From Streptomyces sp. NBC_01717 (GTDB taxonomy: Bacteria > Actinomycetota > Actinomycetes > Streptomycetales > Streptomycetaceae): DNA of 64,000 nucleotides. A model generated the notes under the pieces. It saw only the letters and a list, made by a program, of their open reading frames with translations. It searched no databases and was not told where the DNA came from. Each line of letters begins with the position of its first letter. The stretch's first letter is position 1. The translations under genes and the position numbers were made by a program. The stretch lies in the NCBI RefSeq assembly GCF_036248255.1, contig NZ_CP109178.1, positions 2,666,001 through 2,730,000 of the forward strand, read 5' to 3'. Below, in pieces: positions 2,751 through 55,531 of this stretch.

Positions 2751-5372
2751 ATGACGGAACGTACTGAATTAATTCAGACTTTCGGCCGGAAAACAGAAAT
2801 AGATCGAATAGCGAAATTACTCGGCGGCGGTTCTGCGGGGTACAGCGGCACTCTCATCGTCCAGGGGCCGCCAGGAACAGGTAAGACCAGGCTGCTGCTG
2901 GAGTCCCAACGGGCCGCCGAGCGACTCGACTTCGCCGTCTCCTCGTTCTTGAACCCCGCTGCCGGTGGACCGGCGGGACGCCATGAGGCCGCGTCCCTCA
3001 TGGCGGTGCTCGACTCCGCCGCAGTGAGCTCCAAGCCCCGGCTGGTCGTGGTGGACAACCTGCACAACGCGCCCGAAGAATTGTCCGAGGCAGTGGCGTC
3101 CCTGGCGCACTACGAGCCCCCAAAAAATTCCCGGACGGCTCCCCTCATTCGGATGATCGGGCTTCGCACTGGATTACAGAACCCATCGATGCGTCGCCTT
3201 TCCAGTGAATTCGCCGGGTGCCATCGAATAGAGCTCGGCAGGCTTTCCGAAGCCACTTCCACGGAACTCGCCGCCGACGTCATGGGCGCTGCTCCCGACC
3301 CGAAGCTCACCGCCATGATCTCCGGCGCTGGAGGAAATCCCCTCCTGATCGTGGAACTTGTCCAGGGGTTACGCGAAGAGGGTTCTGTGGAGATTTCCCA
3401 CGAGCGGGCCCGGCTGTTGGACGAACGCATTCCACGACGGGTGCGCGACCTCGCGCAGCACTGGCTGGACTCGCTCTCGGACAAGGCCCGCCAGCTCGTC
3501 CAGGTGGCCGCGGCGGTCGGCGGGTCCTTCATGGTCGTCGAGGTCGCCTCGATGCTGCGGGAGACCACGGCATCGATGCTTCCCGCGCTGAACGAGACCA
3601 TCGCCTCAGGCTTGCTGATCTGTCCGGGCGAGCAGACGGTTTTCCAGCACGAGCTGGTGCGGCGTTCCATCGCCGACGCGCTGCCCGCCGCGGTCCGGCA
3701 GGCACTGCGGCAGGACGTGAGCGCCCTGCGCAGGCAGCATTGTCTCCAGGTGCCGATGCCGCCGGAGTTCCTGGTCACCGGCGGCCGTCCGGCCGGCACG
3801 CCGGTGCCGGGGTCCACGGACGCGCCCGCCCCGCTGCCTGCGTCGGCCCCCCTGCCGGCGTCGTCCACGGAACCCGGGATCGTCCACCGGCTGCTGCCCG
3901 CCCTGCTGATGGCCCGCAGCACCCGCACCGAACCCCTGCCGTTGGGGCTCGCCGATGAGTTGCGAGCCGGCCTGACCGCCGTACTGCAGGCCCACTACGC
4001 CGACGTGGAGCTCACCGGGACCGCTGACGCACCGCTCGCGGACCGGGCCGACCGGATCACCCGCAACACGGTCTCCCTCTTCGCCGACGGTGTGCAGCGC
4101 GCCACCACCCGTGCGCGGGCGATGCTCGCCGCCCACCAGGGCCGCGACGACGAGGCCGACGCGGTGACGGCCACCGTCGTCATGTCCAACCTGGAATGGG
4201 CCGTGGGGAACCTCGCCGAGGGGCTCAGATGGGGGCAGCGCGCCGTCCAGTGCCTGGGCCCGGCCACCCCGCCGATGTGGTCCCCGTACGTCAGGCTGGC
4301 GCTGGCCACCAAGCTGTCCGACATCGGCCGCTTCGACGAGGCCGAGGGGCTCATCCGCACGGCCCGGACGGAGGCCGAGGCGCTTGGCCAACCGCACACG
4401 GCGACGCCGTCGATCGCCAGGGCCATGCTGCTGCTCCAGTCCAGCCGGCTCCAGGAGGCCCAGGACTCCGCCCGGACCGGGCTGGAGGTCGCGGCGAAGA
4501 CCGGCGGCGGCTGGGTCGTACCGGTCGGGCAGGCGGTGCTGATCCTGGTCGCGCTGCGCCGCGGCGACCTGGCGTCGGCCGCCGACTACGCGTGGCGCTG
4601 CCGGGCCGCTGTCGGCGCCGACAGCACGGTCTTCCCCTCGATCCACTTCGATTGGGGGGAGTGTCTGGTGGCCACCGCGCAGCTCGGCGCGCGGCGCACG
4701 GCGGAACTGCTGACCACCACGTACGCCCATCTCCTCACCTCTCCCCAGCTGTTCGTGGAGGAGGCGGCGGCTGCGGCCTGGTTCGTCAGGCTCGCTCTGG
4801 CGGCGGACGACATGCCGCTCGCGTCGACCGTGGTGACGGCCGCCGAAAGGTTCGCGGCTGCCAACCCCGGGCGCCCCACCCTGGCCGTCGCCGCCCTGCA
4901 TGCCAGGGGGTTGCTGGAGCGGGACTCCGAGGCCCTGCGCCAGGCCGCGCGCGAGCACGTCAGCCCGTGCGCGGGGGCGCTCGCCGAGGAGGACCTGGGG
5001 ATACTGCTGAGCGCGCGGGAGGAGAAGAACGGCGCTCTCGGCGCCGCCGCGCTCCGGTCCGCGCTGCAGCGCTTCGTACAGATCGGTTCGCAGGGCGACA
5101 TCGAGCGTATCCGGGCCTTCATGGAGGAGCACGGGACGCCCGTCACGAACGCTCCCCGCCAGGGCAGGGCCGCCACCGCGGGCTGGGAGGCGCTCACGGA
5201 GACCGAGCGGTCCATCGCCCACCTGGTCAGCGACGGGCTGACCAACCGCCAGGTCGCACGGCGGGTCAGCCTGTCTCCGCACACCGTCAACTACCACCTC
5301 AGGGCGATCTTCCGGAAGCTCGGCATCGACTCACGGGTGGAAGTCGCCCGCCACATCACCCACAGCGCATGA
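2751..5372 (+). CDS. LAL-family LuxR transcriptional activator (cluster regulator)
   Basis: This 873-aa regulator is of the large ATP-binding LuxR (LAL) class common as pathway-specific activators in Streptomyces clusters. Walker A GPPGTGKT is at residues 39-46 and a Walker B-like RLVVVDN at about 97-103. A long TPR-like middle follows. The C-terminal LuxR helix-turn-helix (about 810-868) contains LTETERSIAHLVSDGLTNRQ and HTVNYHLRAIFRKLGI. Four TTA leucine codons are visible (2769, 2817, 3174, 3369), so translation is probably bldA-dependent and developmentally timed. The first ~60 codons are AT-richer than the rest and include a 14-bp palindrome. It is followed at 26 bases by the thioesterase gene and faces the biosynthetic operon, so it is the likely activator. 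The family call is firm; the target is inferred. Confidence 0.9.
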   Translation: MTERTELIQTFGRKTEIDRIAKLLGGGSAGYSGTLIVQGPPGTGKTRLLLESQRAAERLDFAVSSFLNPAAGGPAGRHEAASLMAVLDSAAVSSKPRLVVVDNLHNAPEELSEAVASLAHYEPPKNSRTAPLIRMIGLRTGLQNPSMRRLSSEFAGCHRIELGRLSEATSTELAADVMGAAPDPKLTAMISGAGGNPLLIVELVQGLREEGSVEISHERARLLDERIPRRVRDLAQHWLDSLSDKARQLVQVAAAVGGSFMVVEVASMLRETTASMLPALNETIASGLLICPGEQTVFQHELVRRSIADALPAAVRQALRQDVSALRRQHCLQVPMPPEFLVTGGRPAGTPVPGSTDAPAPLPASAPLPASSTEPGIVHRLLPALLMARSTRTEPLPLGLADELRAGLTAVLQAHYADVELTGTADAPLADRADRITRNTVSLFADGVQRATTRARAMLAAHQGRDDEADAVTATVVMSNLEWAVGNLAEGLRWGQRAVQCLGPATPPMWSPYVRLALATKLSDIGRFDEAEGLIRTARTEAEALGQPHTATPSIARAMLLLQSSRLQEAQDSARTGLEVAAKTGGGWVVPVGQAVLILVALRRGDLASAADYAWRCRAAVGADSTVFPSIHFDWGECLVATAQLGARRTAELLTTTYAHLLTSPQLFVEEAAAAAWFVRLALAADDMPLASTVVTAAERFAAANPGRPTLAVAALHARGLLERDSEALRQAAREHVSPCAGALAEEDLGILLSAREEKNGALGAAALRSALQRFVQIGSQGDIERIRAFMEEHGTPVTNAPRQGRAATAGWEALTETERSIAHLVSDGLTNRQVARRVSLSPHTVNYHLRAIFRKLGIDSRVEVARHITHSA
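2764..2777. promoter_or_regulatory. 14-bp perfect palindrome inside the start of the LAL gene
   Basis: CTGAATTAATTCAG is a perfect inverted repeat covering codons 5-9 of the regulator. It lies in the AT-rich 5' end and overlaps the first TTA codon. It could be an autoregulatory operator or could simply fold the message. No protein is known to bind it from this sequence alone. Confidence 0.3.
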
Positions 5373-5397
5373 AATGCGCACCGCAGAAAGGAAGAAC

Positions 5398-5820
5398 ATG
5401 GCCAAGCCGTTCACGGTCCGGGTCACCGTTCGCGTCTACGAGACCGACGCGCAGGGACACCTCAATGGGAACGTGTACCTCCAGCACGCAGAGCACGCGC
5501 GCTGGGAACTGCTGCGCGCGGCCGGGATCAACCAGGGGGACCTGCTGAAGAAGGGCGTGAGTCCGGTCAACCTGGAGACGACCATCAGGTACCACCGTGA
5601 GGTGGTCGCCGGTGACGAGGTGGACATCAACTGCGTCTTCGTCTTCAGCGAGGGCAAGAGCTTCCGGGTGGAGCAGACCATGACCAGGGCCGACGGCACA
5701 CTCGTGGCGGAGGTCTTCAACGTGGGCGGCATCCTCGACCTGGACGCTCGCAGGCTCGTCTCCGATCCCCGGGAGTGCTTCCGCTCGGTGGCGGCCAATC
5801 CGGCAGTGGCCGGGCTCTGA
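5398..5820 (+). CDS. Hotdog-fold acyl thioesterase (4-hydroxybenzoyl-CoA thioesterase family)
   Basis: This 140-aa hotdog enzyme is expected to hydrolyse an acyl- or aroyl-CoA/ACP thioester. The stretch YETDAQGHLNGNVYLQHAEH holds the conserved Asp followed by GH-x-NN-like residues of the 4HBT active site. ATG at 5398 is preferred because GAAAGGAAG lies just upstream. A start at 5374 would overlap the regulator stop without a good site. It is cotranscribed with the LAL gene and could release a finished chain from one of the two ACPs or remove stalled starters. The hotdog fold also serves dehydratases, but the DxxGH arrangement points to a thioesterase. Confidence 0.8.
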   Translation: MAKPFTVRVTVRVYETDAQGHLNGNVYLQHAEHARWELLRAAGINQGDLLKKGVSPVNLETTIRYHREVVAGDEVDINCVFVFSEGKSFRVEQTMTRADGTLVAEVFNVGGILDLDARRLVSDPRECFRSVAANPAVAGL

Positions 5821-5840
5821 CCGCGCTGCCGCCCCGGGCG

Positions 5841-5880: not shown

Positions 5881-5886
5881 GTCGCG

Positions 5887-7068
5887 TCACACCCCGACGC
5901 GTTCCCTCAGTTCCGGTGTCATCAGCTCGTTGGAGGGCAGCACTCCGGAGATGGTGGAGAAGAACCGCGCGGTCATCTGCGAGTCGTCCACGATGGCGCG
6001 CATCAGCGGCAGCCGACGGCCCGGCCGCAACTCGGCCGCGGCCAGGGTGTCCCGGTATCCGTCCATGACCAGGTCGTCCCGCCGCTCGCCGTACCGGCGC
6101 AGCGACTTGTCCAGCCTGGGCTCATCCCGCAGCCCGTCGCCGACGGACTCGACGAGTGCGGTCGCCTGCCGGAAGGCGTCGGTGATGCCCTTGCCGGTGA
6201 GCGAGTCCTTGTGGTGGCCCGCGTCCCCCACCAGCGCCCAGCCGGGGCCGGCGGCCTGGCGGAAGAAGTTGCGCTGGTCCCCGGTGCCGAAGAGCCGGTC
6301 CTCCTGCGTCGCGCCTGCCATCCGGTCGGCCAGTACGGGTGTGATCGCGAAGATGTTCTCCAGGTAGGCGGTACGGGCGTCCGCGCGCACCCGGTCGTAG
6401 TCCGCCATCGGGAAGTAGGTGCCGACCAGGGTCAGGCCGTCGTTGGTGGGGACGAATCCGGCCCACTTGCGGGTGCTCTCGTACACCTCGAAGCCGGTGT
6501 CGATTCCCGACCAGAACGAGTAGTACGCGCAGGTCAGGATGGGATCCTCCAACTCGGTTCGGGCACCGGCGAGTTCGGCGACCTTGGAGCGCATCCCGTC
6601 CGCACCCACCACGAGACGGGCCCGCTCCTCGAACTGCCGCCGGCCCGAGCGGTAGCGGACGCCGACCACCCGGTCTTCCTCGAACACCAGCTCGTCGACT
6701 GTGGACTGTTCGCGGAACTCCGCGCCGGACGCGACCGCCTCGTCGGTGAGGATGCGGTCCAGCAGGTAGCGGCGCGGGGCGTACGCGGCTGTGACGCCGT
6801 CGGCGGGCCACGAACAGCCTTCGAGCACCACGTCCTTGACCTGGTGGCGGGCGTGGTCGAGCGGCGGGCAACCGGTGGCGGCGACCGTGTCGAGCACGCC
6901 CCAGCGGTTCAGGTGGGCGACGCCTGGCTGATGGATGTAGAGGGTCGAGAGGGTGTCGCGGGGGTGGCGGATGCGGTCCAGCAGCAGCACGCGGTATCCG
7001 GCGCGGGCGAAGAGCATCGCTGTCGGGGAACCGGCGGCCCGCGCTCCCACCACTATGACGTCGTACAC
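5887..7068 (-). CDS. FAD-dependent monooxygenase (group A, PHBH-like)
   Basis: This is a 393-aa flavoprotein with a GTG start. VIVVGARAAGSPTAMLFARA is the N-terminal Rossmann dinucleotide-binding turn (a GxGxxG variant). VVGADGMRSKVAELAG is the DG motif. GWALVGDAGHHKDSLTGKGI is the GD motif that contacts the FAD ribityl chain and marks the p-hydroxybenzoate hydroxylase / geranylgeranyl-reductase superfamily. It is the last gene of the biosynthetic operon and most likely hydroxylates or otherwise oxidises the aromatic unit or the polyketide tail. No halogenase WxWxIP signature is visible. The superfamily is clear; the substrate is inferred from context only. Confidence 0.8.
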   Translation of the reverse strand: MYDVIVVGARAAGSPTAMLFARAGYRVLLLDRIRHPRDTLSTLYIHQPGVAHLNRWGVLDTVAATGCPPLDHARHQVKDVVLEGCSWPADGVTAAYAPRRYLLDRILTDEAVASGAEFREQSTVDELVFEEDRVVGVRYRSGRRQFEERARLVVGADGMRSKVAELAGARTELEDPILTCAYYSFWSGIDTGFEVYESTRKWAGFVPTNDGLTLVGTYFPMADYDRVRADARTAYLENIFAITPVLADRMAGATQEDRLFGTGDQRNFFRQAAGPGWALVGDAGHHKDSLTGKGITDAFRQATALVESVGDGLRDEPRLDKSLRRYGERRDDLVMDGYRDTLAAAELRPGRRLPLMRAIVDDSQMTARFFSTISGVLPSNELMTPELRERVGV

Positions 7069-7095
7069 GGGGCGACCGTGCCTTTCCTGGGATCG

Positions 7096-7231: not shown

Positions 7232-8290
7232 TCAACCCACGCCCGCCTTCTTCAGCGCGTCGGCGAGTGCGCGCAGGGTCCGCAGGCCGTCCTCCGCGTC
7301 GACGGGGAAGATCATTGCGGAGAGCGTGGTGACTCCCGCCCCCGCGTGCTCCCGCAGGGTGTCGGCGATGCGCTCGACGGGGCCCAGCAGACAGGTCCGT
7401 TCCAGGAACTGCTGGGGGATCGCCGCGGCTGCCTCACGCGGGCGGCCGTCCAGGTACAGCTCCTGGACGCGCTGTGCGGCGTCCGGATAGCCCATGCGGG
7501 CGGCGAGACGGTTGTAGAAGTTCTCCTTGCGGGAGCCCATGCCGCCCAGGTAGTGCGCGGTGTACACGCGGACGCGGTCGGCACAGTCCGCGACGTCGTC
7601 GCCGACGACCGCGGGCATCGAGGAGACGACGTCGAACCCTGTCAGGTCCCGGCCCGTCCTCGCCCGCCCGGCCCGCAACAGCGGCAGGTGCTCGGCGACG
7701 GTCTCGGGCTGGAAGAACACGGACAGCCAGCCGTCGGCGATCTCCCCGGCCAGCTCCACGTTGCGCGGCCCGACCGCCGCCAGGTAGACCGGCACGTCCT
7801 TGCGGCGCGGCCGGGTGCCGAGGCGCAGCGGCTTGCCCGGTCCGTCGGGCAACGGGAGCCGGTAGTGCGCGCCGTCGTAGACGACGTCCTCTCTGCGCAG
7901 TGCCATGCGGACGATGTCCAGGTACTCGCGGGTGCGCGCCAGCGGCCTGTCGAAGCGCGCGCCGTGCCAGCCCTCGGCGACCTGAGGCCCCGAGACGCCC
8001 AGGCCGAGCCGGAAGCGGCCCTCGGAGAGGATGTCGAGGGTGGTGGCGGTCATCGCGGTCATCGCGGGGCTGCGGGCCGGGATCTGCATCGCGGCCGTGC
8101 CGAGTTCGATGCGGCTGGTCTGCGCGGCGAGGTAGCCGAGCAGGGACACCGCGTCCGAACTGAAGGCCTCGGCGGTCCAGGCCACCGCGTAGTCGAGCCG
8201 CTCCGCCTCCTGTACGTACCTAGCGGAGGTCCTCGGGTCGGCGCCCGCGCCGAGGTTGCCGAGGTAGCGCAGGTTCAGTCCGAGTCTCAT
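7232..8290 (-). CDS. Luciferase-like (LLM) flavin/F420-dependent oxidoreductase
   Basis: This 352-aa TIM-barrel oxidoreductase belongs to the bacterial luciferase superfamily. MRLGLNLRYLGN starts strand 1. LGTAAMQIPARSPAMTAMTA and LGLGVSGPQVAEGWHG are family hallmarks, and VPVYLAAVGPRNVELAGEIA matches the loop seen in F420-dependent members. The start at 8290 is fixed by an ATGA overlap with the upstream alpha/beta hydrolase gene. A longer in-frame extension to 8404 lies wholly inside that gene and is not needed. In this operon it probably performs a late redox step such as hydroxylation or saturation. F420 versus FMNH2 use cannot be decided by eye, though the motifs lean to F420. Confidence 0.8.
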   Translation of the reverse strand: MRLGLNLRYLGNLGAGADPRTSARYVQEAERLDYAVAWTAEAFSSDAVSLLGYLAAQTSRIELGTAAMQIPARSPAMTAMTATTLDILSEGRFRLGLGVSGPQVAEGWHGARFDRPLARTREYLDIVRMALRREDVVYDGAHYRLPLPDGPGKPLRLGTRPRRKDVPVYLAAVGPRNVELAGEIADGWLSVFFQPETVAEHLPLLRAGRARTGRDLTGFDVVSSMPAVVGDDVADCADRVRVYTAHYLGGMGSRKENFYNRLAARMGYPDAAQRVQELYLDGRPREAAAAIPQQFLERTCLLGPVERIADTLREHAGAGVTTLSAMIFPVDAEDGLRTLRALADALKKAGVG

Positions 8291-9240
8291 CGGTGCACCG
8301 TCCTGTTCGGATCGACGACCGCCTCCGGGTCGTTCCCGGTCCGGGCGCAGGCACGGTCCAGGAATTCCAGGACGGTCGAGGTGTAACGCTCCTTGTCGGC
8401 CCACAGGCCGCGCAGGTGGCGGGCGTCGGGGAGCACGAGGGTCCGGGCGTGCGGGTAGCGGCGGGCAAGCCGCAGAATCTCGTCGGCGGGCACCACGGCG
8501 TCCGCACCGCCGCCGATGAACAGCATCGGGGTGGTGGCGTATCCGGGCGCGGCCGGGGCGGGCGGCCAGTCGGCGCCGCCGATGGTGAGGTGGTTGAACA
8601 GCTCGAAGGACCGCTCGGCGACCGCCCCGGCCCTTCCGCCGCGGGTCCGCTCCGGCAGCGGGAGCAGACCCTCGCGCAGCAGGTTGGGAGAGATCGCCGG
8701 GGGGTCGCAGGCGGGCCCGCTGTCGCAGACCACCGCGTCGACGACCGGGTGCAGCTTCTGCAGCGCGCGCAGCATCGCGAACGAGGAGAGCGAGAAGCCG
8801 TACAGGACGAGCCGTGCGCCGGCGTGCTCCGGCAGGGTGGTCACGTACCGGGCAGCGGCGACGGTGTCCTGCCCGAACTTCCGCCCGAAGCCGGCGAATC
8901 CGCGGTCCTGGAAGCTGTCGCCGTGGTTGCGGTAGTCGAACAGCAGCACCGTGTGTCCGGCCCTGTGCAGATAGCGGGCGTAGGGCAGGCTGCGGGACTT
9001 GTCCAGGCCGAGCCCGTGGCCGAGCAGCACCACGCGGTCCGTACGCTCGCCCCGGCAGAGCCAGCCGGCGAGCGTTCGGCCGCCCCTGCCCGCGGGGATG
9101 GTCACCTCCTGCGCCCTGAGCCCGAACTGCTCGGGTCGGCGGCGGCGTTCGGGCCTGGGCGGATGGAACGCGGTGTACGCGGTGCGCATTGCGTCGAGCG
9201 GCGCCGTGAGCAGCGCGGCCGGCCGGTTGCTCATGTCCAT
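8287..9240 (-). CDS. Alpha/beta hydrolase
   Basis: This 317-aa alpha/beta-hydrolase-fold protein has LLGHGLGLDKSRS as its oxyanion-hole strand and LYGFSLSSF as its nucleophile elbow (Ser150; a G-x-S-x-S variant of GxSxG). The putative acid is in GGGADAVVPADE and the catalytic His in DARHLRGLW. It overlaps the downstream oxidoreductase gene by 4 bases, so it is translationally coupled. It could be a second editing or release thioesterase, a cyclase, or an esterase acting on the product. It has no signal peptide. The fold is secure; the reaction is unknown. Confidence 0.75.
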   Translation of the reverse strand: MDMSNRPAALLTAPLDAMRTAYTAFHPPRPERRRRPEQFGLRAQEVTIPAGRGGRTLAGWLCRGERTDRVVLLGHGLGLDKSRSLPYARYLHRAGHTVLLFDYRNHGDSFQDRGFAGFGRKFGQDTVAAARYVTTLPEHAGARLVLYGFSLSSFAMLRALQKLHPVVDAVVCDSGPACDPPAISPNLLREGLLPLPERTRGGRAGAVAERSFELFNHLTIGGADWPPAPAAPGYATTPMLFIGGGADAVVPADEILRLARRYPHARTLVLPDARHLRGLWADKERYTSTVLEFLDRACARTGNDPEAVVDPNRTVHR

Positions 9241-9349: not shown

Positions 9350-10096
9350 TCACACCACCAGACCTCCGTCGATGCCGAGCACCTGGCCGCTGATGTACGC
9401 GGCCCGCGGCGACACCAGGAAGGAGACCAGGTCGGCGACCTCGTCGGCCGCCCCGAAGCGGCCCAGTGGGACCTTGCCCAGGATCTGCTTCTTGACGGCG
9501 TCGGACATGTCGGCCGTCATGTCGGTCTCGATGAGGCCGGGCGCGACGGAGTTGACGCGGATGCCGTACTTGCCGACCTCTCTGGCGAGGGAGCGGGAGA
9601 AGCCGATGATGCCGGCCTTGGACGCCGCGTAGTTGCTCTGGGTCGCGTTGCCGTGCACGCCCGCCACGGACGACATGGTCACGATGGTGCCGGTGCGCCG
9701 CTTCATGAAGGAGAAGACCGAGGCACGGCAGATGGTGTAAGTGCCGTCGAGGTTGGTGGAGATGACGTCGCGCCACTGGTCGTCGTCCATCAGGACGAGC
9801 GGGTTGTCGCGCACGATGCCCGCGCTGGTGACCACGGCGTCCAGCGGGCCGAGATCCTCCTCGGTCCGGTTGACGAACTCGCGAGCCGCGGCCGGGTCCG
9901 CGACGTCCAGCGACTGGGTGAGGACCCGCGCGCCGAGCGCTGTGGCCTCCTTGGCGACCTGCTCGGCCGCGCCGGTGTCGGAGCGGTAGCAGAGCGCCAC
10001 GTCGAAGCCGTCGCGGGCGAGCCGGGTGACCACGGCCCGTCCTATCCCGCGGGAGCCGCCGGTGACGAGGGCGACCGGTCGTGCGCCATCTGACAT
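9350..10096 (-). CDS. 3-ketoacyl-ACP reductase (FabG-like SDR)
   Basis: This 248-aa classical short-chain dehydrogenase has the NADPH motif TGGSRGIG (residues 12-19), NAG-equivalent TSAGI, and catalytic Ser143, Tyr156 and Lys160 in YAASK. The ending SGQVLGIDGGLVV is typical of FabG. It is the only obvious ketoreductase in the cluster and should reduce the beta-keto group of the ACP-bound chain after each condensation by one or more KS pairs. It lies about 110 bases upstream of the hydrolase gene in the same operon. The call as a FabG-type reductase is firm; use by this PKS is inferred from position. Confidence 0.9.
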   Translation of the reverse strand: MSDGARPVALVTGGSRGIGRAVVTRLARDGFDVALCYRSDTGAAEQVAKEATALGARVLTQSLDVADPAAAREFVNRTEEDLGPLDAVVTSAGIVRDNPLVLMDDDQWRDVISTNLDGTYTICRASVFSFMKRRTGTIVTMSSVAGVHGNATQSNYAASKAGIIGFSRSLAREVGKYGIRVNSVAPGLIETDMTADMSDAVKKQILGKVPLGRFGAADEVADLVSFLVSPRAAYISGQVLGIDGGLVV

Positions 10097-10274: not shown

Positions 10275-10529
10275 CTACTTGAGCTTCGAGTCGACCAGCG
10301 CGCGCACCTGGAGCAGGTTGGAGACCTGTTTGAAGTCGGACTCGGCGACCTTGATGCCGTACTTCTTCTCCAGGTTGACGACGATCTCCAAGGCCATGAG
10401 CGAGTCGACCTGGAGGTCGTCGACGAAGTGCGCCTCGTCGGTGACCTCTTCGACGGGGAGCTCCAGTGCGTCGGCGACGAGCGAGCGCAGTTCCTCGGTG
10501 TCGACGGCGACGGCGGTGTTCTCGGACAT
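10275..10529 (-). CDS. Acyl carrier protein 1
   Basis: This 84-aa carrier protein carries the phosphopantetheine attachment motif DSL with Ser43 (VDSLMALE), preceded by DDLQ and followed by an acidic helix II, as in type II fatty acid and polyketide ACPs. It sits between the enoyl-reductase-like and ketoreductase genes, which suggests it carries the growing, reducible chain. A second ACP gene lies near the operon start (19543-19800), so the pathway may separate starter and extension carriers. Gaps of 64 and 178 bases flank it, so it may have its own translation or processing signals. Confidence 0.92.
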   Translation of the reverse strand: MSENTAVAVDTEELRSLVADALELPVEEVTDEAHFVDDLQVDSLMALEIVVNLEKKYGIKVAESDFKQVSNLLQVRALVDSKLK

Positions 10530-17347: not shown

Positions 17348-18312
17348 CGCGGACCTTTCCTTCGGGACGTCACTTCCACGGCGACGGCGTTGCCGCTGCC
17401 GAGAGCCAGCGCGAGGACGCGCGGGCCCGGTTGTTCCAGAGGGCCGGGGGCGGCCGTCAGGGCGACCGCGGTGACCATCGCGGCGACGCCCCCGGCGGCC
17501 CCCAGGTCGCCCAACCGCTCCTCGACCCGCAGCAGCGGCGCGGCACACAGCAGGGCCAGGGCGCCCGCGGCGCGGGTGTCTGTCGCGGGCGCGGACAGGA
17601 CCAGGTGGTCCGGCGGCCCGTCCAGTCGTTCCAGGCAGGAGCGGACGAAGGCGTCGATGCCGTTTCGGGCCGTACGGGCCCTGAGGACCGGCCCGACAGT
17701 CGCTCCCCCGCCGTACGGGGCGTGCCGCTGGAGCACCGCACACAGCGCGCCCTCCGCCGGGTCGCCGCCGGGGCAGGACCGCCACGTGGACGTGTCCGCC
17801 GAGCCTCCGACCACGACGCGCTCGCACCGGCCCCGGGTCAGCATCCGTACGGCTTCGGTGACGGCGTGGGCGCCCGCGTCCTGCTCCCCGGTCACGTTCA
17901 GGTACGGCCCGTCGAGGCCGAAGCGCACGGACACCGCCGTCACGGGCGCGGTGAACGCGGAGTGCGCGGTGCGCCGTGGGGAGACCCGTCCTGGCCCGAA
18001 CTCCGGGATGTCGGCGCAGGTCTGCGCGTAGGCGGCCAGGCCCGCGGTGGACGAGGCCCACACGGTGGCGGTGCTGCCGCCCGCTCCCGGCGCCCCGGGT
18101 GTGCGGGTGGACGCGGCTGCTATGGCGTCGGTGGCGGCGGCGAGCGCGTGCTCGTGCTCCGGTGCCTCGTGCGCGAAGCGACGGAGGGCGGACGGGACGA
18201 GCAGACCGGACAGTCCCGCCGCTCCCGGGAGTCGGACGCCGAGCCCGCCTACAGCCACCACGGTCTGCCGCGCGGGGGCGCGCAGGACGGTACGTACGGT
18301 CTCAGACTTCAT
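17344..18312 (-). CDS. KS-like chain-length-factor subunit 1 (Gln in active site)
   Basis: This 322-aa KS-fold protein has the nucleophile loop NVTGEQDAGAHAV with Gln144 in place of Cys. A Cys-to-Gln change is the classic mark of chain-length factors and KSQ domains, which can decarboxylate malonyl-ACP. HGTGT is absent. Its start lies 11 bases inside the end of KS 1, so the two are tightly coupled. It is the only one of the three KS-like partners with the canonical Gln, so this pair most resembles an ordinary minimal type II PKS heterodimer. Confidence 0.78.
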   Translation of the reverse strand: MKSETVRTVLRAPARQTVVAVGGLGVRLPGAAGLSGLLVPSALRRFAHEAPEHEHALAAATDAIAAASTRTPGAPGAGGSTATVWASSTAGLAAYAQTCADIPEFGPGRVSPRRTAHSAFTAPVTAVSVRFGLDGPYLNVTGEQDAGAHAVTEAVRMLTRGRCERVVVGGSADTSTWRSCPGGDPAEGALCAVLQRHAPYGGGATVGPVLRARTARNGIDAFVRSCLERLDGPPDHLVLSAPATDTRAAGALALLCAAPLLRVEERLGDLGAAGGVAAMVTAVALTAAPGPLEQPGPRVLALALGSGNAVAVEVTSRRKGPR

Positions 18313-19543
18313 CGTCGCCCCCGGCCGCGCCGAGCAGGAGCGCGGACACCCCGCCGCCCAGCCCGAAGGCGAGGCTGAGCACGGTGGCTACCGCGGCCTC
18401 GCGACCCCGCGGCGGCACCAGGTCCAGGCCGGCGCAGGCCGGGTCGGGCCGGCGGAGGGTGGCGTTGCCCGGAAGGTGTCCTGCGGCCATCGCGAGCACC
18501 GCCACCACCGCTTCGAGCACTCCAGCCGCGCCCTGGGTGTGGCCGAGCATGCCCTTGAGCGAGGACACGGCGGGCCTGCGCCGCCCGGGTCCGCCGAGGG
18601 CGGAGACGATCGCCCGCGCCTCGACGCCGTCGCTCGCGAGGGTGCCGGTGCCGTGCGCGCACACCCAGTCGATCTCCTCGGGTGCACGGCCCGCGTCCCG
18701 CAGACAGGTGCCGATCGCCTCGACGAGGGCGTCACCGGTCGGCCGCGGCCGGGTGAGGTGGTACGCGTCGGCTGCAGCACCGTGCGCCAGGAGGACGGCC
18801 AGCGGCAGGCCGCCGCGTGCGGCGCAGTGCTCGGCGCTCTCCAGGATCAGGACGGCGGCGCCCTCGGCGGGCTGCATGCCGAGCCGGTCGCCGTCGAAGG
18901 GGCGGGCGACGTCGGGGGCGAGCGCCCGCAGCGAGGTGAACATGGCGAACACCTCCTGGGAGAGCTCCTCGGCCCCACCGCAGATCGCGACGTCCACCTC
19001 TCCCTCGGAGATCGCGGCGGCTCCGCATGCCACGGCGTCGCCGCCGACGGAGCAACCGGAGGCCAGCAGCACCATGGGCCCGTCAACGGGTACGACCTCG
19101 GGCACCAGGTCGAGCAGCCGTCCCGGCTCGGCCCAGTCGGTGCCCTCGGCCGTCAGTCCGGCGGAGGTGATGCCGTGGTCCAGGACCGGCCTGGTGCCCA
19201 TGACCGTCCCCGCGAAGACGCCGGTACGGGCGCGGTCCCCGGTGCGGGTGAGCCCCGCGCCATGTGCCGCTTCCGCCGCGGCGGCGGCCAGGCAGCGTGC
19301 GGCGAGCGAGCGGTGCGGCGGCACGAGGGAGTCGAGCCGGGACAGCGTGGACCGGGGGATTTCCCCGGCGCGGTGCGAGGGATGGCGGGAGGTGTCGAAG
19401 CGGGTGACGGGTCCCGTCGTCACCCGGCCCCCGCGAACGGCGTCCCACAGCGCCCGGTGACCGAGTCCGGCCGGCGACACCGCGCCGACCCCCGTCACCA
19501 CGATGCCGGCGCGCCCGGGGGGGCACTCGACGGCAGTCGCCAT
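18302..19543 (-). CDS. Beta-ketoacyl-ACP synthase 1 (KS-alpha)
   Basis: This 413-aa ketosynthase has Cys164 (LASGCSVGGDAV), His297 (CAHGTGT) and His335 (LGHTQGAAG), a complete triad. The ATG overlaps the ACP 2 stop by one base (TGATG), which gives an ACP-KS-CLF order like a minimal PKS. GCS in place of the more common ACA/ACS context around the Cys sets it apart from KS 2 and KS 3. It probably starts or carries out chain extension with malonyl units. Confidence 0.9.
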   Translation of the reverse strand: MATAVECPPGRAGIVVTGVGAVSPAGLGHRALWDAVRGGRVTTGPVTRFDTSRHPSHRAGEIPRSTLSRLDSLVPPHRSLAARCLAAAAAEAAHGAGLTRTGDRARTGVFAGTVMGTRPVLDHGITSAGLTAEGTDWAEPGRLLDLVPEVVPVDGPMVLLASGCSVGGDAVACGAAAISEGEVDVAICGGAEELSQEVFAMFTSLRALAPDVARPFDGDRLGMQPAEGAAVLILESAEHCAARGGLPLAVLLAHGAAADAYHLTRPRPTGDALVEAIGTCLRDAGRAPEEIDWVCAHGTGTLASDGVEARAIVSALGGPGRRRPAVSSLKGMLGHTQGAAGVLEAVVAVLAMAAGHLPGNATLRRPDPACAGLDLVPPRGREAAVATVLSLAFGLGGGVSALLLGAAGGDDEV

Positions 19544-19800
19544 CAGACCACCTTTCCCTTGTCGCGCAGCAGTGCCAGCACGGCCGACGCCGACTTCATT
19601 TCGGCCGCCTCGTCGGGACTGACCGAGATCGCGAATTCCCGCTCCACCCGCACGGCGATTTCGACCTTCTCCAGGGAATCAGCCGCCAGGTCGTCGTAGA
19701 AACTCGCGTCCGGTTCCACGCTTTCGATGTCGATCTCCAGGATTTCCGCGACGATGCCACGCACACGGTCGAGAGCGGCAATGCTCTGCACATCGGACAT
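19543..19800 (-). CDS. Acyl carrier protein 2
   Basis: This 85-aa ACP has Ser42 in the ADSLEKVE phosphopantetheine motif and an acidic helix before it. The start at 19800 has GAGGG upstream; a longer frame to 19836 runs over the ribosome binding site. It is the second gene of the operon, 16 bases after the DAHP synthase gene and coupled to KS 1. With ACP 1 it gives two distinct carriers for three KS pairs. Confidence 0.9.
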   Translation of the reverse strand: MSDVQSIAALDRVRGIVAEILEIDIESVEPDASFYDDLAADSLEKVEIAVRVEREFAISVSPDEAAEMKSASAVLALLRDKGKVV

Positions 19801-19816: not shown

Positions 19817-21019
19817 CTAGTTCGCAACGGCGGCAATTGCTTGTTCCGCGTTCAGTCGGGGATCGCACAGCGTGGTGGAGCGGCCGTCGCAGCTGGTGAG
19901 TTCCGACGTGTCGGCGACGCATTCGGAAACCTTGTCGGGGGTGGTCTCCAGGTGAAGTCCACCCGGAAACACGCCGATTTCGCGCAGGGCCGCCTGAAAT
20001 TCGCAGATCTCCTGGGTGACGGAGCTCAGCAGCCGCGTCTTGCGGCCGTTGGTGGCTCGTACGGTGTTGCCGTGCATCGGGTCGCACAGCCAGACCACCG
20101 GGTGCCCTGCCTCTCGCACCCGGGCAGCCAGTGCGGGCAGACGGCGGGCCGCCTCTCCGGCTCCCATCCGAGAGATGAGCGTCAGCCGCCCCGGCCTGCG
20201 CGCCGGGTCCAGGAGCGCGCACAGCCGCAGGAGTTCCTCCTCCGTCATGCTGGGACCGACCTTGCAGGCGACCGGATTGGAGACCGCGGCCAGCATGCGG
20301 ACATGCGAGCCGTCGAGCTGGCGGGTGCGGTCGCCGATCCACGGCCAGTGGGTGGACGTCAGCAGCATGTCGCCCTCGGAGCCGCGGCGCAGTTGCGGCA
20401 GCTCGTAGTCCATGACCAGTGCCTCGTGGCTGGTCCACACCGGCACCCTGGTGATCTCCTGCTGCTTGCGCAGGTAGGTCATGGCGGTGGTCGCGGCCTC
20501 GTGACAGGCGAGCATGCGCAGCGGATCGGGCCTGCGGTCCTCCTCGGTCTCCTTCGGGCCGTTGACCAGATGCCCGCGGAAGACCGGAAGTTCCACGCCG
20601 TCGACGACCTCGGTCGGGCCGGACCGGGGCTTGGCGAACTGGCCGGCGAAGCGGCCCACCCGCAGCACAGGCAGTCCGGAACCGATCTGCATCACTCCGG
20701 CAAGAGCGTCCAGCAGACCGGTCTTCCTGCCCAGGTGGGCGGGCGTGCACTCGGCCGGGTCCTCGGCGCAGTCGCCCGCCTGGACGACCTGCCGGCGGCC
20801 GGCCGCGACGTCGGCCAGGGCCGAGCGCAGCGCGTGGATCTCGTCGGCGTCCACAAGTTCCGGCAGGCAGGCGAGGTCCCTCCTGATGCCGGTGACGAGC
20901 CAGTCGTCGGTCCAGGCGGGCTGCTGACGGGACGGCAGCAGCCGCCAGGACCGCATCTCGTCCTCGGTGAGTGCGGAATGGGATTCGGTGAGTCCGGCCC
21001 AGTTGATGGCGACGTTCAT
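19817..21019 (-). CDS. Class II (plant-type) DAHP synthase
   Basis: This 400-aa 3-deoxy-D-arabino-heptulosonate-7-phosphate synthase catalyses the first step of the shikimate pathway, from PEP and erythrose-4-phosphate. QAGDCAE (80-86, Cys84 as metal ligand), THWPWIGDRTRQLDGSHV, VSNPVACKVGPSM, WLCDPMHGNT and GGLHLETTP are class II hallmarks. It lacks the long N-terminal extension of the mycobacterial feedback-regulated enzyme, as is usual for cluster-borne copies. As the first gene of the operon it should raise chorismate supply for the aromatic building block. No strong Shine-Dalgarno is visible at the ATG. Confidence 0.93.
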   Translation of the reverse strand: MNVAINWAGLTESHSALTEDEMRSWRLLPSRQQPAWTDDWLVTGIRRDLACLPELVDADEIHALRSALADVAAGRRQVVQAGDCAEDPAECTPAHLGRKTGLLDALAGVMQIGSGLPVLRVGRFAGQFAKPRSGPTEVVDGVELPVFRGHLVNGPKETEEDRRPDPLRMLACHEAATTAMTYLRKQQEITRVPVWTSHEALVMDYELPQLRRGSEGDMLLTSTHWPWIGDRTRQLDGSHVRMLAAVSNPVACKVGPSMTEEELLRLCALLDPARRPGRLTLISRMGAGEAARRLPALAARVREAGHPVVWLCDPMHGNTVRATNGRKTRLLSSVTQEICEFQAALREIGVFPGGLHLETTPDKVSECVADTSELTSCDGRSTTLCDPRLNAEQAIAAVAN

Positions 21020-21399: not shown

Positions 21400-23331
21400 G
21401 TGAGTGAGACGAATACGGCACGTCTGCATGCCCTGTTGAGTCCCGGTGCACCGCCGTTCGCCCTGCTCCACCGACCGCATTCCGCGGGCCACGACGACGT
21501 CGAGCTCCTGCTCGGTGACGTCACAGAGGTTCCGGGGCTGGGCGACCTGCCGCTGCCCTCGGGCCCGCCGTCGCACAGCGCCGACGGCCGCCACGACCTG
21601 GTGGTGCTGGTTCCGTACCGTCAGATAGCGGAGCGCGGTTACGCGCACCAGGACGACGGCACTCCGCTGCTCGCCATGACGGTGGTCGAGCAGACCAGGC
21701 TGAGCGTCGAGGAGACGCTCGCCACCGTCCCCGACCGGCCCTTCGAGCTGGCCGACGCCGGCTTCGACACCGACGACGCCGAGTACGAGACGATCGTCCG
21801 CAAGATCATGGGCGAGGAGATCGGGCGCGGCGAGGGCGCGAACTTCGTGATCAAGCGCTCCTTCGTCGCCACGGTCCAGGGACCTCCCACCGAGGCCGCG
21901 TTGACGGTGTTCCGTCGCCTGCTGGCCGGTGAGGCCGGTGCGTACTGGACCTTCCTCGTGCACACGGGGACGCGCACTCTGGTGGGCGCCACCCCCGAGC
22001 GGCACGTCGCACTGAACGACGGCACCGTCACCATGACCCCGATCAGCGGCACCTACCGCTACCCCGCCGACGGCCCCACCGTCCCCGAGACGCTCCGCTT
22101 CCTCGCGGACCCCAAGGAGACCGACGAGCTGTACATGGTCGTCGACGAAGAGCTGAAGATGATGGCGCGCATCTGCGAACCCGGGGTCCGGACGGAGGGA
22201 CCGTACCTGCGGGAGATGACGCGGCTGGCCCACACCGAGTACCACCTCAGCGGGCGCACCACGCTGGAGGTGGGCGAGATCCTGCGCGAGACGATGTTCG
22301 TGCCCACCGTCACGGGCAGCCCGCTGGAGAACGCCTGCCGGGTCATCAACCGGTACGAGACCGACGGCCGCGCCTACTACAGCGGGGTGCTCGCCGTGAT
22401 CGGCCGGGACGAGGTCGGCACCAGGCGGATGGACTCCGCGGTACTCATCCGCTGCGCCGACATCGACGCGCGCTCCCGGCTACGGATCGGCGTGGGCGCG
22501 ACACTGGTGCGCCACTCCGACCCCGGCTCCGAGGTCGCCGAGACCCGTGCCAAGGCGGCGGCGGTGCTCCAGGCCCTGCACGGCGGCGTCCAGAAGGGAT
22601 CGGCCGAAGGCCCCGCGCTCGCCGCGGACCCCGGAGTCCTCAGTTCCCTGGCGGACCGCAACCGGACCCTCGCCCGGTTCTGGCTGGACCCGTTCGACAA
22701 GGAGGCGCACCGCGGCCACCGGGAGGTGCTGGCCGGCCGGCGGGTCCTGCTGATCGACGGCGAGGACACCTTCACCGCGATGCTCGCCCACCAACTCCTC
22801 GCCCTGGGCCTGCGCGTCACCGTCCGGCGCTTCGACGACTCGTACGAAACGGCCGACGACGACCTCGTGATCGTGGGCCCCGGCCCCGGCGACCCGCGCG
22901 AGCAGAACCACCCGAAGATCGCCGCCCTGCGCCGCACCGTCCGCGAACTGCTGGCCGCGCGGCGGCCGTTGCTGGCGGTCTGCCTCGGACACCAGGTGCT
23001 CTGCGCGGAACTCGGGCTCGACCTGATCCGCAAGAACCCGCCCAACCAGGGGGTCCAGCGGCGGATCGACCTGTTCGGCCGCCCGGCCAGGCTCGGCTTC
23101 TACAACACCTACGCGGCCCTCTCCCCCGCCGACCGCTTCAGCGCCCCTCAGGTCCCCGAGGGCATCGATGTCAGCCGGGACCCGGACAGCGGCGAGGTCC
23201 ACGCGCTGCGCGGCGAACGGCTGCGCTCGACACAGTTCCACCCGGAGTCGCTCCTGTCCGAGGACGGACTGCGCATCCTCGCCGACGACCTGTCGGCGCT
23301 GCTGCCCGCCCCTGTCCGCGCGACGGGCTGA
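21400..23331 (+). CDS. Fused chorismate-utilising amidotransferase (PhzE/ADIC-synthase-like)
   Basis: This 643-aa enzyme fuses an N-terminal chorismate-binding domain (about 1-400) to a C-terminal class I glutamine amidotransferase (about 440-643). The amidotransferase triad is visible: Cys528 in LAVCLGHQ, then His614 and Glu616 in FHPES. The N-domain stretches IGRGEGANFVIKRSF and GSPLENACRVINRYE resemble PhzE, which makes 2-amino-2-deoxyisochorismate, more than primary TrpE. It could instead make anthranilate directly. No isochorismatase-like PhzD gene is present, so the phenazine route is unlikely. The GTG start follows GGGGAG. It should supply the nitrogen-bearing aromatic acid of the pathway. 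Confidence 0.85.
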   Translation: MSETNTARLHALLSPGAPPFALLHRPHSAGHDDVELLLGDVTEVPGLGDLPLPSGPPSHSADGRHDLVVLVPYRQIAERGYAHQDDGTPLLAMTVVEQTRLSVEETLATVPDRPFELADAGFDTDDAEYETIVRKIMGEEIGRGEGANFVIKRSFVATVQGPPTEAALTVFRRLLAGEAGAYWTFLVHTGTRTLVGATPERHVALNDGTVTMTPISGTYRYPADGPTVPETLRFLADPKETDELYMVVDEELKMMARICEPGVRTEGPYLREMTRLAHTEYHLSGRTTLEVGEILRETMFVPTVTGSPLENACRVINRYETDGRAYYSGVLAVIGRDEVGTRRMDSAVLIRCADIDARSRLRIGVGATLVRHSDPGSEVAETRAKAAAVLQALHGGVQKGSAEGPALAADPGVLSSLADRNRTLARFWLDPFDKEAHRGHREVLAGRRVLLIDGEDTFTAMLAHQLLALGLRVTVRRFDDSYETADDDLVIVGPGPGDPREQNHPKIAALRRTVRELLAARRPLLAVCLGHQVLCAELGLDLIRKNPPNQGVQRRIDLFGRPARLGFYNTYAALSPADRFSAPQVPEGIDVSRDPDSGEVHALRGERLRSTQFHPESLLSEDGLRILADDLSALLPAPVRATG

Positions 23332-23585
23332 CCGGAGAACGGGTCGATGCCCGGCACGACTCCCGTCCCCCGCCGCGATCCCGGCGCGCGGGCGGCCGCG
23401 TGCCACGGCCCTCGTCTCCGCCACGGATCCACCGCGCGGGCGGACGCATTCCACGCCGCCGTGGTGGGCGCCCGGCACCGGTCCCGTCCCGCCGCTCCCC
23501 CGCCACGCGCCGCTGCCCCGGCGCGTTCCGCGAAGGGGTCCCGCCCTCCAGTTCACGTCGCAGACCTCACCCGAAAGCGCACTTG

Positions 23586-25124
23586 ATGTCACTCACCCAC
23601 AGGCGCCCGGCCACGGCGGAGTCCGGTGGACGCGGTCTCGTCCTCGCGCTGGGCCTCTCGGCCATGATCGTGTCGATGATGCAGACCCTGGTCGTCCCGA
23701 TCCTGACCGTGGTCCAGAAGGACCTGTCGCTGTCCTCCTCGAGTACGAGCTGGCTGGCCACCTCGACGCTGCTGTCCGCCGCCGTGTTCACCCCGCTGCT
23801 CGGCCGCCTGGGCGACATGCGCGGGAAGCGACCCGTACTCCTGTGCGTGCTGGGAGTGACCGTCGTCGGGTCCGCGCTGGCAGCCACCACCAGCTCGCTG
23901 CCACTGCTGCTCGTCGCCCGCGCGATGCAGGGAGCTTCGACGGCGATCTTCCCGCTCGCGCTGTCGGTACTGCGCGACGAACTGCCCGCGCGGCGGCTGC
24001 CGGGGGCGATGGGGCTGGTCAGCGGGACCCTGGCGTTCGGCAGCGGTCTCGCCCTGGTCGGCGCGGGGCTGCTCACCCAGGGCCCGCACCCGGACTACCA
24101 CCGGGTGTTCTGGCTGGCGACCGTACTGTCCCTGATCGCGCTGGCCACCGTGGCGATCGCCGTCCCGCCGTCGCCCTCCTCCACCGGCGGCCGTACGGAC
24201 TGGCTGGGAGCGACGACACTCGCCGGCGCGCTGGTCCTGCTCCTGCTGCCCATCTCTCAGGGCGGTACATGGGGTTGGACCTCGGCGCGCTGCCTGGGGC
24301 TGCTGGGGGGCGCGGCGGTACTGACCGCCGTGTGGGCGGTCGTCGAACGCCGGGTGCGCCAACCTCTGGTGGACATGCGCATGTTCGCCCTGCGGCCGGT
24401 GGTCTTCACCAACCTCGCCGGGGTGCTGCTGGGGTTCGGCATGTTCACCCAGTTCATCGGCATCTCGTACTTGGTGCAGACGCCCCACCGGATCGCGGGG
24501 TACGGCTTCTCGGCGTCGGTGCTCGATGCCGCTGTGGTCTATCTGCTGCCCGGCACCGTCGCGTCGTTGATCGCCGCACAGTTCGGCGGTGTGCTGGTCC
24601 GGCGGATCGGCGCCCGCGTCACCCTGGCCGCCGGGGCCGGGTCGGGTGTCCTGGGCTTCGGCTGGCTGGCCGTCAGCCACGGCAGTCCCGGGGGTGTCGT
24701 GGCGGCGGGGCTGCTCACCGGCATCGCGGTCAGCTTCGGCTTCGCCACGCTGCCCGCGTTCATCGTGGCGGGCGTTCCCGTCCATCAGAGCGGCATCGCG
24801 AACGGCATCAACTCGATCGCCCGGTCCCTGGGCAGTTCGCTGGGCAGCGCCGTGATCACCGCGCTGCTGAGCGCCCGCCTGCTGACCGGTCTTCCCCCCG
24901 GTACGCCCGCGGTGCCCGCCGAGGGCCAGTACACGCTCTCCTTCGCCCTCGGCGCCACCGCCTTCGCACTGGTCGCCCTCATCGCTCTCACCGGCCTGCG
25001 GATCGAGGCCGTCCCGCACCACAAGGTCGTAGGGCCCGCAGGCCCGGGCGCCCAGGCTCCCGAAGGGATCCGTCCGACGCCGGGTCCCCGGCACCGGGCC
25101 CGGCGCAATTCGGGACAGCGATAG
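23586..25124 (+). CDS. MFS drug exporter (DHA2 / 14-TM type)
   Basis: This 512-aa integral membrane protein has about 14 hydrophobic segments. The loop motif LGRLGDMRGKRPVLL between TM2 and TM3 is MFS motif A. The remaining architecture (VGAGLLTQG, TDWLGATTLAGALVLLLLP) fits the EmrB/QacA family of proton-coupled exporters. It lies 254 bases after the ADIC-synthase gene in the same direction and is the last gene of the cluster, so it is probably for export and self-resistance. Translation from 23586 is preferred; the much longer frame upstream is Arg/Pro-rich and not credible. Confidence 0.9.
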   Translation: MSLTHRRPATAESGGRGLVLALGLSAMIVSMMQTLVVPILTVVQKDLSLSSSSTSWLATSTLLSAAVFTPLLGRLGDMRGKRPVLLCVLGVTVVGSALAATTSSLPLLLVARAMQGASTAIFPLALSVLRDELPARRLPGAMGLVSGTLAFGSGLALVGAGLLTQGPHPDYHRVFWLATVLSLIALATVAIAVPPSPSSTGGRTDWLGATTLAGALVLLLLPISQGGTWGWTSARCLGLLGGAAVLTAVWAVVERRVRQPLVDMRMFALRPVVFTNLAGVLLGFGMFTQFIGISYLVQTPHRIAGYGFSASVLDAAVVYLLPGTVASLIAAQFGGVLVRRIGARVTLAAGAGSGVLGFGWLAVSHGSPGGVVAAGLLTGIAVSFGFATLPAFIVAGVPVHQSGIANGINSIARSLGSSLGSAVITALLSARLLTGLPPGTPAVPAEGQYTLSFALGATAFALVALIALTGLRIEAVPHHKVVGPAGPGAQAPEGIRPTPGPRHRARRNSGQR

Positions 25125-55528: not shown

Positions 55529-55531
55529 GGC

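Follow-up and report, generated by a model that had tools for sequence, protein, structure and literature searches.

How one gene cluster might use three ketosynthase/chain length factor (KS/CLF) pairs, and on what starter unit, is the question raised by a dense block of 19 intact genes at positions 2751-25124 of a 64,000-nucleotide stretch of the Streptomyces sp. NBC_01717 genome, referred to here as the window (positions 2666001-2730000 of contig 1; G+C content, 0.70; genome of 10.2 Mb in 3 contigs, completeness 100). Genes were called by codon usage, except for the full frame of the regulator that begins at 2751, which was taken from the open-reading-frame list, and 20 proteins (the products of the 19 cluster genes and of the next gene) were scanned against Pfam and NCBIfam. 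We consider it moderately probable that the block is a self-contained cluster for a small aminobenzoyl-primed, partly reduced type II polyketide. In order, it encodes a LAL/LuxR-type regulator, a 4HBT hotdog thioesterase, a FAD-dependent protein, a luciferase-like F420-dependent protein, an alpha/beta hydrolase, a FabG-like ketoreductase, an acyl carrier protein (ACP2), a FabI/FabL-like short-chain dehydrogenase/reductase (SDR), CLF1, KS1, CLF2, KS2, a benzoate-coenzyme A (CoA)-ligase-like acyl ligase (BCL), CLF3, KS3, ACP1, a 3-deoxy-d-arabino-heptulosonate 7-phosphate (DAHP) synthase, a PhzE-like protein, and an exporter of the major facilitator superfamily (MFS). Every class of protein named in a preliminary description of this DNA was recovered as an intact frame, and the alpha/beta hydrolase gene (8287..9240, minus strand; PF12146 and PF00561) is an additional member that was absent from its inventory. 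The gene families, the intact active sites, the unity of the cluster, the lineages of the KS/CLF pairs, and the shared ACP1-ligase frame of two relatives can be read directly from the sequence.

The limits of the cluster were established by comparison with relatives. Of the 294 other genomes in the genus sample, one contained a KS3 match at an E value below 1e-90 (6 candidates scored per genome). This genome, G298, retains 19 of 19 cluster genes with order and relative orientation kept, at 91.7 to 98.8% protein identity. The homologous block spans exactly the LAL regulator to the MFS exporter, which agrees with the coordinates first proposed, and its flanks are unrelated, with 0 of 13 other called genes in the 39.5 kb viewed matching either the window or the 6 kb preceding it. 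No internal stops were found in the G298 block, and dN/dS ranged from 0.075 for FabG to 0.439 for the alpha/beta hydrolase. In S. coacervatus (locus L026 together with L052 and L053), 18 of the 19 genes are collinear at about 51 to 85% identity, and both flanks are again unrelated. The 4HBT hotdog protein (5398..5820, plus strand; PF13279, 72 bits) is 78% identical in S. coacervatus. The MFS exporter (23586..25124, plus strand; PF07690) is 95% identical in G298; no counterpart was seen in the S. coacervatus stretches, which cover approximately 13 kb beyond the PhzE gene. A search with CLF3, in which 8000 candidates were scored, returned 17 matches, 8 of them at at least 69% identity (for one of them, over just 60% of the length); Streptomyces names are attached to 5 of the 8, and CLF3 of Streptomyces sp. 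NPDC058545 is 96% identical to that of the window. No close CLF3 was detected among 198 other genomes sampled from the genus, 82 of which gave weak matches (best E value, 1.4e-11; 11 candidates scored per genome). Since the block is collinear in G298 and S. coacervatus and has few other carriers, the cluster is rare but maintained. By these comparisons, it is a real, bounded, and maintained orphan cluster.

The preliminary description had assigned an aminobenzoate supply to the locus. This assignment is supported by a divergently arranged pair of PhzC- and PhzE-like genes, with the refinement that the supply is of the phenazine type and lacks PhzD. The fused chorismate-binding/amidotransferase protein (MST-GATase; 21400..23331, plus strand), which could produce 2-amino-2-deoxyisochorismate (ADIC) or anthranilate, scores 619 bits against PDB entry 3r74, which we take to be PhzE, and at most 54 bits against anthranilate synthases; it reaches 166 bits with the TrpEG model, for which the cutoff is 739. 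The chorismate amidotransferase noticed at first is thus present and groups with PhzE, not with TrpE or TrpEG. A TrpEG-type anthranilate synthase was ruled out by the 54-bit PDB ceiling and the score under the TrpEG cutoff. The motifs PISGT and PIKGT separate aminodeoxychorismate (p-aminobenzoate) synthase from its relatives, and this enzyme was also ruled out, the motif being PISGT and not PIKGT. The class II DAHP synthase (19817..21019, minus strand; PhzC/type II-beta-like) best matches 6bmc, presumably the P. aeruginosa PhzC type, at 388 bits, compared with 265 to 304 bits for six other, longer class II enzymes. It thus belongs to the short class II kind, which is not known to be subject to aromatic feedback. 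The enzyme is 57% identical to its homologue in locus L067 and 37% identical to the other class II DAHP synthase of the genome, which lies head to head with a second PhzE-like gene (L005, G000:C1:6742602-6746378), so that both pairs are divergent. The PhzE-like protein of the cluster is 52% identical to that of L005 and 57% identical to that of L067. A recent copy of the L005 pair was ruled out as the origin of the cluster pair by the identities of 37% (DAHP synthase) and 52% (PhzE-like protein).

No isochorismatase-family match, and hence no PhzD, was found among the 19 cluster proteins. All 13 isochorismatase-family matches in the genome lie outside the window, and the best of them is 31% identical to the L067 protein, leaving the genome with no close PhzD. 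A search of 7 genomes for PF01959, which we take to be one of two 3-amino-4-hydroxybenzoic acid (3,4-AHBA) synthase families, found it in G004 only; the genome itself, G298, and S. coacervatus lack it. A 3,4-AHBA starter was rejected on this absence, the search having covered this one of the two families. As the genome has neither a close PhzD nor a PF01959 gene, an anthranilate-type starter is likeliest on genomic grounds, anthranilate itself being the likeliest candidate. In L067 (genome G023), PhzE, isochorismatase, SDR, and PhzC genes stand side by side, a set that, judging by its families, presumably leads to 3-hydroxyanthranilate. There, the PhzC/PhzE genes lie beside a ligase/KS2 module, which ties a PhzE-type supply to this type of ligase and KS2.

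The nearest PDB chains to BCL (15803..17347, minus strand), the probable starter loader, are benzoate-CoA ligases (2v7b, 250 bits), followed by the anthranilate-CoA ligase 4wv3 (202 bits). Ligases of this type accompany KS/CLF genes in three settings: Micromonosporaceae loci, L066/L067, and the window. In the Micromonosporaceae, the ligase occurs with ACP1, KS3, and CLF3 in 8 of 8 loci (L027-L034), in each of which ACP1 adjoins KS3 and the ligase, and a C-terminal PF00975 thioesterase domain was present in 6 of 6 ligases scanned (of 8). These loci, from Phytohabitans, Micromonospora, and Plantactinospora, contain a four-gene cassette, ACP-KS-CLF-[acyl ligase-thioesterase fusion] (e.g., L027:8337-13086), in surroundings that vary between genera; from its gene content, the cassette looks like a minimal aryl-ketide synthase that is complete in itself.

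In L066 and L067, the ligase is found with ACP1, KS2, CLF2, ACP2, and FabG. In L067, the ligase shares one 597-aa open frame with an ACP1-like domain (TSLEKVE), and in L066 ACP1 reads without a stop via a Pro/Ala-rich stretch into the ligase. These apparent fusions mark ACP1 as the carrier of the ligase. CLF2 and then ACP2 likewise share one open frame in L067. In the relatives that were aligned, including L026 and L066, ACP1 and ACP2 belong to different types; L067 ACP1 was taken from its open frame and not from this alignment. It should be noted that ligases were cut to 620 aa for the ligase tree, in which long-branch AMP-ligases leave the deep forks unsure. In the Ava and Cma systems (avenalumic acid and p-coumaric acid; actinomycete highly reducing type II polyketide synthases [PKSs]), as described in the available text of PMC10777205, an acyl-ACP ligase loads 3,4-AHBA on one of two ACPs, the other ACP carries malonyl, and KS/CLF extension and reduction take place. 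By analogy, we infer that ACP1 of the window (19543..19800, minus strand; PF00550) carries the aminobenzoate starter and that ACP2 (10275..10529, minus strand; PF00550) carries the malonyl extender.

Two of these relatives can be described as clusters in their own right. The L067 cluster (L067:2018-14799) comprises PhzE, isochorismatase, SDR, PhzC, FabG, CLF2-ACP2, KS2, ACP1-ligase, a divergent AMP-ligase, and 4HBT, and from these genes it probably makes a 3-hydroxyanthranilate-primed short polyketide. The L066 locus (L066:4992-13110, genome G005) comprises ACP1-ligase, KS2, CLF2, ACP2, FabG, and a divergent AMP-ligase/4HBT pair.

All of the three ketosynthases, KS1 (12380..13699, minus strand; the start may be 13669), KS2 (14664..15806, minus strand), and KS3 (18302..19543, minus strand), keep the Cys-His-His residues and the Lys. 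Their KS-beta partners lack the Cys and have Arg in that column in CLF1 (11400..12383, minus strand; weak PF00109 match), Ala in CLF2 (13696..14667, minus strand), and Gln in CLF3 (17344..18312, minus strand). The mean pLDDT of the AF2 model of CLF3 was 68, which is moderate only. A 38-row KS tree was built from called genes of 330 to 480 aa, leaving out S. coacervatus KS3 and a 782-aa call of L075. KS3 groups only with 8 Micromonosporaceae KSs (support, 100/100), KS2 groups with the KSs of L026, L066, and L067 (100/99) inside a 12-row clade, and KS1 groups with the KSs of L026, L068, L073, L074, L075, and L076 (100/99). The same three groups were obtained in a 32-row CLF tree (230 to 460 aa; CLF3 of L026, L031, L032, and L034 left out; the L067 row still carrying ACP2), in which CLF2 groups with CLF2 of L026, L066, and L067 (99/99). 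The agreement between the KS and CLF trees argues that each KS/CLF pair travelled together, and by this phylogeny the three pairs are three separate lineages. Within the set of loci retrieved, KS1/CLF1 turns up again in type II loci of the reducing kind.

The reference enzyme Iga11 falls in a fourth clade of the KS tree (9 rows, 100/99), which has 0 window members. In the PDB, KS1 and KS2 match 9s5h and Iga11 more closely than they match the actinorhodin KS, and KS3 is nearly even (195 bits to 9s5h, 195 bits to Iga11, and 179 bits to the actinorhodin KS, 1tqy). KS1- and KS2-lineage enzymes adjoin Iga11-clade KSs in several loci, for the KS2 clade in L068-L072 and L076; KS2-clade enzymes occur without an Iga11-clade KS in the stretches of L066, L067, L073, L074, S. 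coacervatus, and the window. Asp113, which promotes ketoacyl-chain release in Iga11 according to the available text of PMC8358021, is present in 8 of the 9 rows of the Iga11 clade (Iga11 counted); none of the 28 rows that make up the KS1, KS2, and KS3 clades, the window included, has it. Clades were assigned by the tree and not by BLAST labels; BLAST labels L075_12 and L076_07 as KS2, but the tree puts them in the Iga11 clade. An Iga11-type polyene PKS was ruled out by the KS tree and by Asp113 occurring in 0 of 3 window KSs.

A two-pair layout was observed in L073 (L073:2225-14819), where a formyltransferase-adenylation-carrier protein and a type I KS with a carrier domain are followed by KS2/CLF2, KS1/CLF1, and an ACP. 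L074 (L074:5936-17719) resembles it, its adenylation protein being placed by the ligase tree alone (the domain scan covered L073 only). Neither locus has an Iga11-clade KS in the stretches seen. From its gene content, this L073/L074 type is another orphan hybrid using two KS/CLF pairs; the layout agrees with serial use of the pairs and does not prove it.

For reduction, the cluster encodes a FabG-like ketoreductase (9350..10096, minus strand; PF13561; TIGR01830, 297.9 bits at a cutoff of 297.75) with a YX3K motif and the FabI/FabL-like SDR (10594..11400, minus strand), a possible enoyl reductase with a YX6K motif, both motifs having been read by eye. The best PDB match of the SDR is 3oic (89 bits), and the SDR adjoins KS1/CLF1 also in L068 and L075. 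No FabA/FabZ-type dehydratase match was found among the 19 cluster proteins; L068, which has KS1/CLF1 and the SDR, contains two FabA-like genes. The missing dehydratase gene is no obstacle, because the Cma dehydratase has been proposed to come from fatty acid synthase (PMC10777205, available text). The oxygenases of the preliminary description correspond to two proteins. The FAD-dependent oxidoreductase/monooxygenase-like protein (5887..7068, minus strand; 393 aa; PF01494) has flavin halogenases as its nearest PDB chains (61 to 64 bits) and relatives (41 to 48%) in L068 and L075. The luciferase-like protein (7232..8290, minus strand; 352 aa) is also present, but it fits an F420-dependent oxidoreductase (TIGR03559, 377.8 bits at a cutoff of 335) and need not be an oxygenase; its start is an ATG at 8290, the longest frame beginning at 8404, and the S. 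coacervatus call has 353 aa. The product first suggested, an aminobenzoyl-primed and partly reduced polyketide, is partly supported by the aminobenzoate-type supply, by the aryl-acid ligase standing by ACP and KS/CLF genes elsewhere, and by the reductases present.

Every catalytic step of the following pathway, and its product, are deduced from these gene families. The PhzC- and PhzE-like enzymes would convert shikimate-pathway precursors to ADIC and then probably to anthranilate, the probable end of the supply because no PhzD is at hand; anthranilate could form either by an intrinsic lyase step or out of released ADIC. BCL would activate the aryl acid and load it on ACP1, ACP2 would bear malonyl, and KS3/CLF3, KS2/CLF2, and KS1/CLF1 would lengthen the chain, perhaps by one step each. 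The order KS3, KS2, KS1 is a guess, made because it follows the gene order and because KS3 and KS2 relatives adjoin the loader and KS1 relatives do not. FabG would reduce keto groups, and dehydration may be performed in trans by the fatty acid synthase dehydratase; alternatively, with the amino group ortho to the carbinol carbon, the benzylic beta-hydroxyl may leave by itself. The FabI-like SDR would saturate one position, and either the hotdog thioesterase or the alpha/beta hydrolase, which might also cyclize the chain, would free it. The FAD and F420 enzymes would tailor the product, MFS would export it, and LAL would switch the cluster on. A more specific version is speculative, and we regard it as somewhat unlikely: a non-iterative "type II assembly line," in which three KS/CLF pairs of separate descent perform one programmed extension each on an ortho-aminobenzoyl starter supplied by PhzC/PhzE without PhzD, yielding a short aminoaryl polyketide of undescribed skeleton.

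Several observations weigh against the aminobenzoyl-primed, partly reduced polyketide or its finer details. As to the supply, the L005 PhzE-like protein is also strong against 3r74 (558 bits), and therefore PhzE likeness alone cannot separate ADIC from anthranilate production. PhzD activity could come in trans from the 13 isochorismatase-family proteins, which is unlikely in view of their sequences. The genome-wide search for 3,4-AHBA synthesis covered one of the two synthase families; the aldolase partner was sought, and not found, within the cluster. BCL scores closer to benzoate-CoA ligases than to the anthranilate ligase, and its 321 bits with TIGR02262 are under the family cutoff of 375. 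The SDR is far under its family cutoffs (the best NCBIfam match, FabL, gives 121 bits against 328), and the substrates of FabG and the SDR are guesses. As to the number of extensions, aryl polyene KSs likewise lack an Asp113 counterpart in the available text of PMC8358021, yet they build polyenes, and a single Ava KS/CLF pair performs two extensions (PMC10777205, available text). Both facts lower the odds of one extension per pair.

Among other explanations, the one that survives best is the formation of two chains, one aryl primed (by KS3 or KS2 with BCL) and one acyl primed and reduced (by KS1 with the SDR), that are joined later as in manumycin-type compounds. KS1/CLF1 and the SDR do stand apart in L068 and L075, in 20-kb stretches with no BCL match, and the cluster has two ACP types; however, it has no separate KSIII, acyltransferase, or amide-forming match that could start or join a second chain, and we consider this explanation unlikely. 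An aurachin-like route seems quite unlikely. In it, anthraniloyl-ACP1 would receive two malonyl units from KS3/CLF3 alone and close to a 2-alkyl-4-quinolone, whose alkyl part would be made or lengthened by the KS1 and KS2 pairs with the help of FabG and the SDR. In its gene functions, the Micromonosporaceae cassette (ACP-KS3-CLF3-[ligase-thioesterase]) corresponds to SauB/C/D/E/K of aurachin SS, and the aurachin systems (AuaB-E and SauB-E/K) described in the available text of PMC10295502 have in common with the window an anthranilate-type starter (proposed for the window), a ligase, an ACP, and KS/CLF, with a thioesterase in the Streptomyces version. This likeness is by gene family and not by sequence alignment to Aua or Sau proteins. 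In contrast to aurachin, no prenyltransferase, N-hydroxylase, P450, or Rieske match was found among the 19 cluster proteins, extra KS/CLF pairs and reductases are present, and L066 and L067 have KS2, FabG, and this type of ligase but no KS3. A nonaminobenzoate starter, with PhzC/PhzE feeding another nitrogen-bearing unit and BCL loading benzoate or a similar acid, would suit the PDB neighbors of BCL and the L066 ligase and KS2 module, which has no PhzC/PhzE match within its 20 kb and so shows that this type of ligase can occur apart from such a supply, but this explanation is likewise improbable, as the cluster has no second ligase or NRPS domain for another aryl acid and L067 couples a PhzC/PhzE/isochorismatase supply with the same ligase type.

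Returning to the aminobenzoyl-primed polyketide, no described cluster with this gene set was found in the open-licence papers searched, and the initial statement that no described pathway was recognized is borne out within them; Ava/Cma and aurachin are described parallels only. In the available sections of a 2025 review of type II PKSs (PMC12664062), anthranilate is given only for PqsD and aurachin. By the features compared, the cluster is not of the Ava/Cma, Iga11, cispentacin, aromatic, phenazine, or diazaquinomycin kind, and by analogy its first steps are probably like those of Ava/Cma and aurachin. Ava/Cma and the window have in common an acyl-ACP ligase, two ACPs, and KS/CLF (by family, not by alignment), an aminobenzoate starter (proposed for the window), a FabG-type reductase (Ava), and, as far as the published gene table goes, no dehydratase (PMC10777205). 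Ava/Cma differ in their 3,4-AHBA synthase, diazotase, and nitrite genes and in having one KS/CLF pair instead of three, whereas the PhzC/PhzE supply, the FabI-like SDR, and the FAD and F420 enzymes are peculiar to the window. Diazotase and nitrite (ANS) genes are absent from the cluster, the only part of the genome searched for them; its one AMP-ligase-family gene is benzoate-ligase-like.

The remaining systems are more distant. Ishigamide-type Iga11-Iga12 resembles the window in its discrete KS/CLF, ACP, and FabG-like ketoreductase; unlike it, the window lacks an Iga11-clade KS, Asp113, and a dehydratase gene. Cispentacin AmcF-AmcG, a single-extension KS with its partner (KS-CYF) that uses 2-oxoglutarate as the starter (PMC10698177, available text), has a KS with a small partner and a ligase-loaded ACP, as is inferred for the window. 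However, the window KSs score 182 to 211 bits against AmcF (NCBIfam cutoff, 325), and AmcG gives 26.5 bits for CLF2, 21.3 bits for CLF3 (cutoff, 80), and no match for CLF1. Phenazine clusters share the PhzC-like DAHP synthase and the PhzE-like enzyme, but no PhzD, PhzA/B, PhzF, or PhzG match exists in the cluster (PhzA/B, PhzF, and PhzG were sought in the cluster and not genome-wide). An actinorhodin-type aromatic polycyclic PKS was rejected, as there is no cyclase match in the cluster and the three KSs score lower to 1tqy than to Iga11. Diazaquinomycin (daq) also combines an aminated aromatic core with beta-ketoacyl units, as proposed for the window, and its clusters of 19 and 23.5 kb are similar in size (PMC8706298, available text). 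The daq genes include two arylamine N-acyltransferases (PMC11213898, available text) and a 3-dehydroquinate-synthase-II gene (PMC12224297, available text). A diazaquinomycin cluster was rejected, with neither an arylamine N-acyltransferase nor a 3-dehydroquinate synthase II match among the 19 proteins and PF01959 absent from the genome.

In the usual view of type II systems, one KS/CLF is used repeatedly. The presence in one operon of three pairs of different ancestry, without an Iga11-clade pair, makes the successive use of discrete pairs directly testable. In addition, phenazine-type supply genes have apparently been reused to feed a polyketide. The cluster likely specifies a new aminoaryl compound in several Streptomyces, with a compact four-gene relative in Micromonosporaceae.

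The cluster's own LAL regulator, claimed in the preliminary description, is present (2751..5372, plus strand; 873 aa; GerE and AAA_16 Pfam matches), is retained in G298 and S. coacervatus, and is the probable activator. Its gene contains 4 TTA codons in the window, 1 in G298, and 0 in S. coacervatus. All four window codons lie within codons 1 to 230 (window 2751-3440), where the third-position G+C content (GC3) is 0.69, compared with 0.93 for the rest. Control by bldA via these codons was rejected, since they are not kept in the relatives.

Outside the cluster, the adjoining gene (25709-29179) encodes a 1156-aa fusion of a NAGPA phosphodiester glycosidase and a metallophosphatase domain. Further along, at window 48351-61503, genes for two GH32 hydrolases and a PfkB kinase are grouped with those for a family 5 binding protein and an oligopeptide-kind ABC transporter ATPase. 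It is slightly unusual to find a sugar hydrolase next to a transporter of the peptide type.

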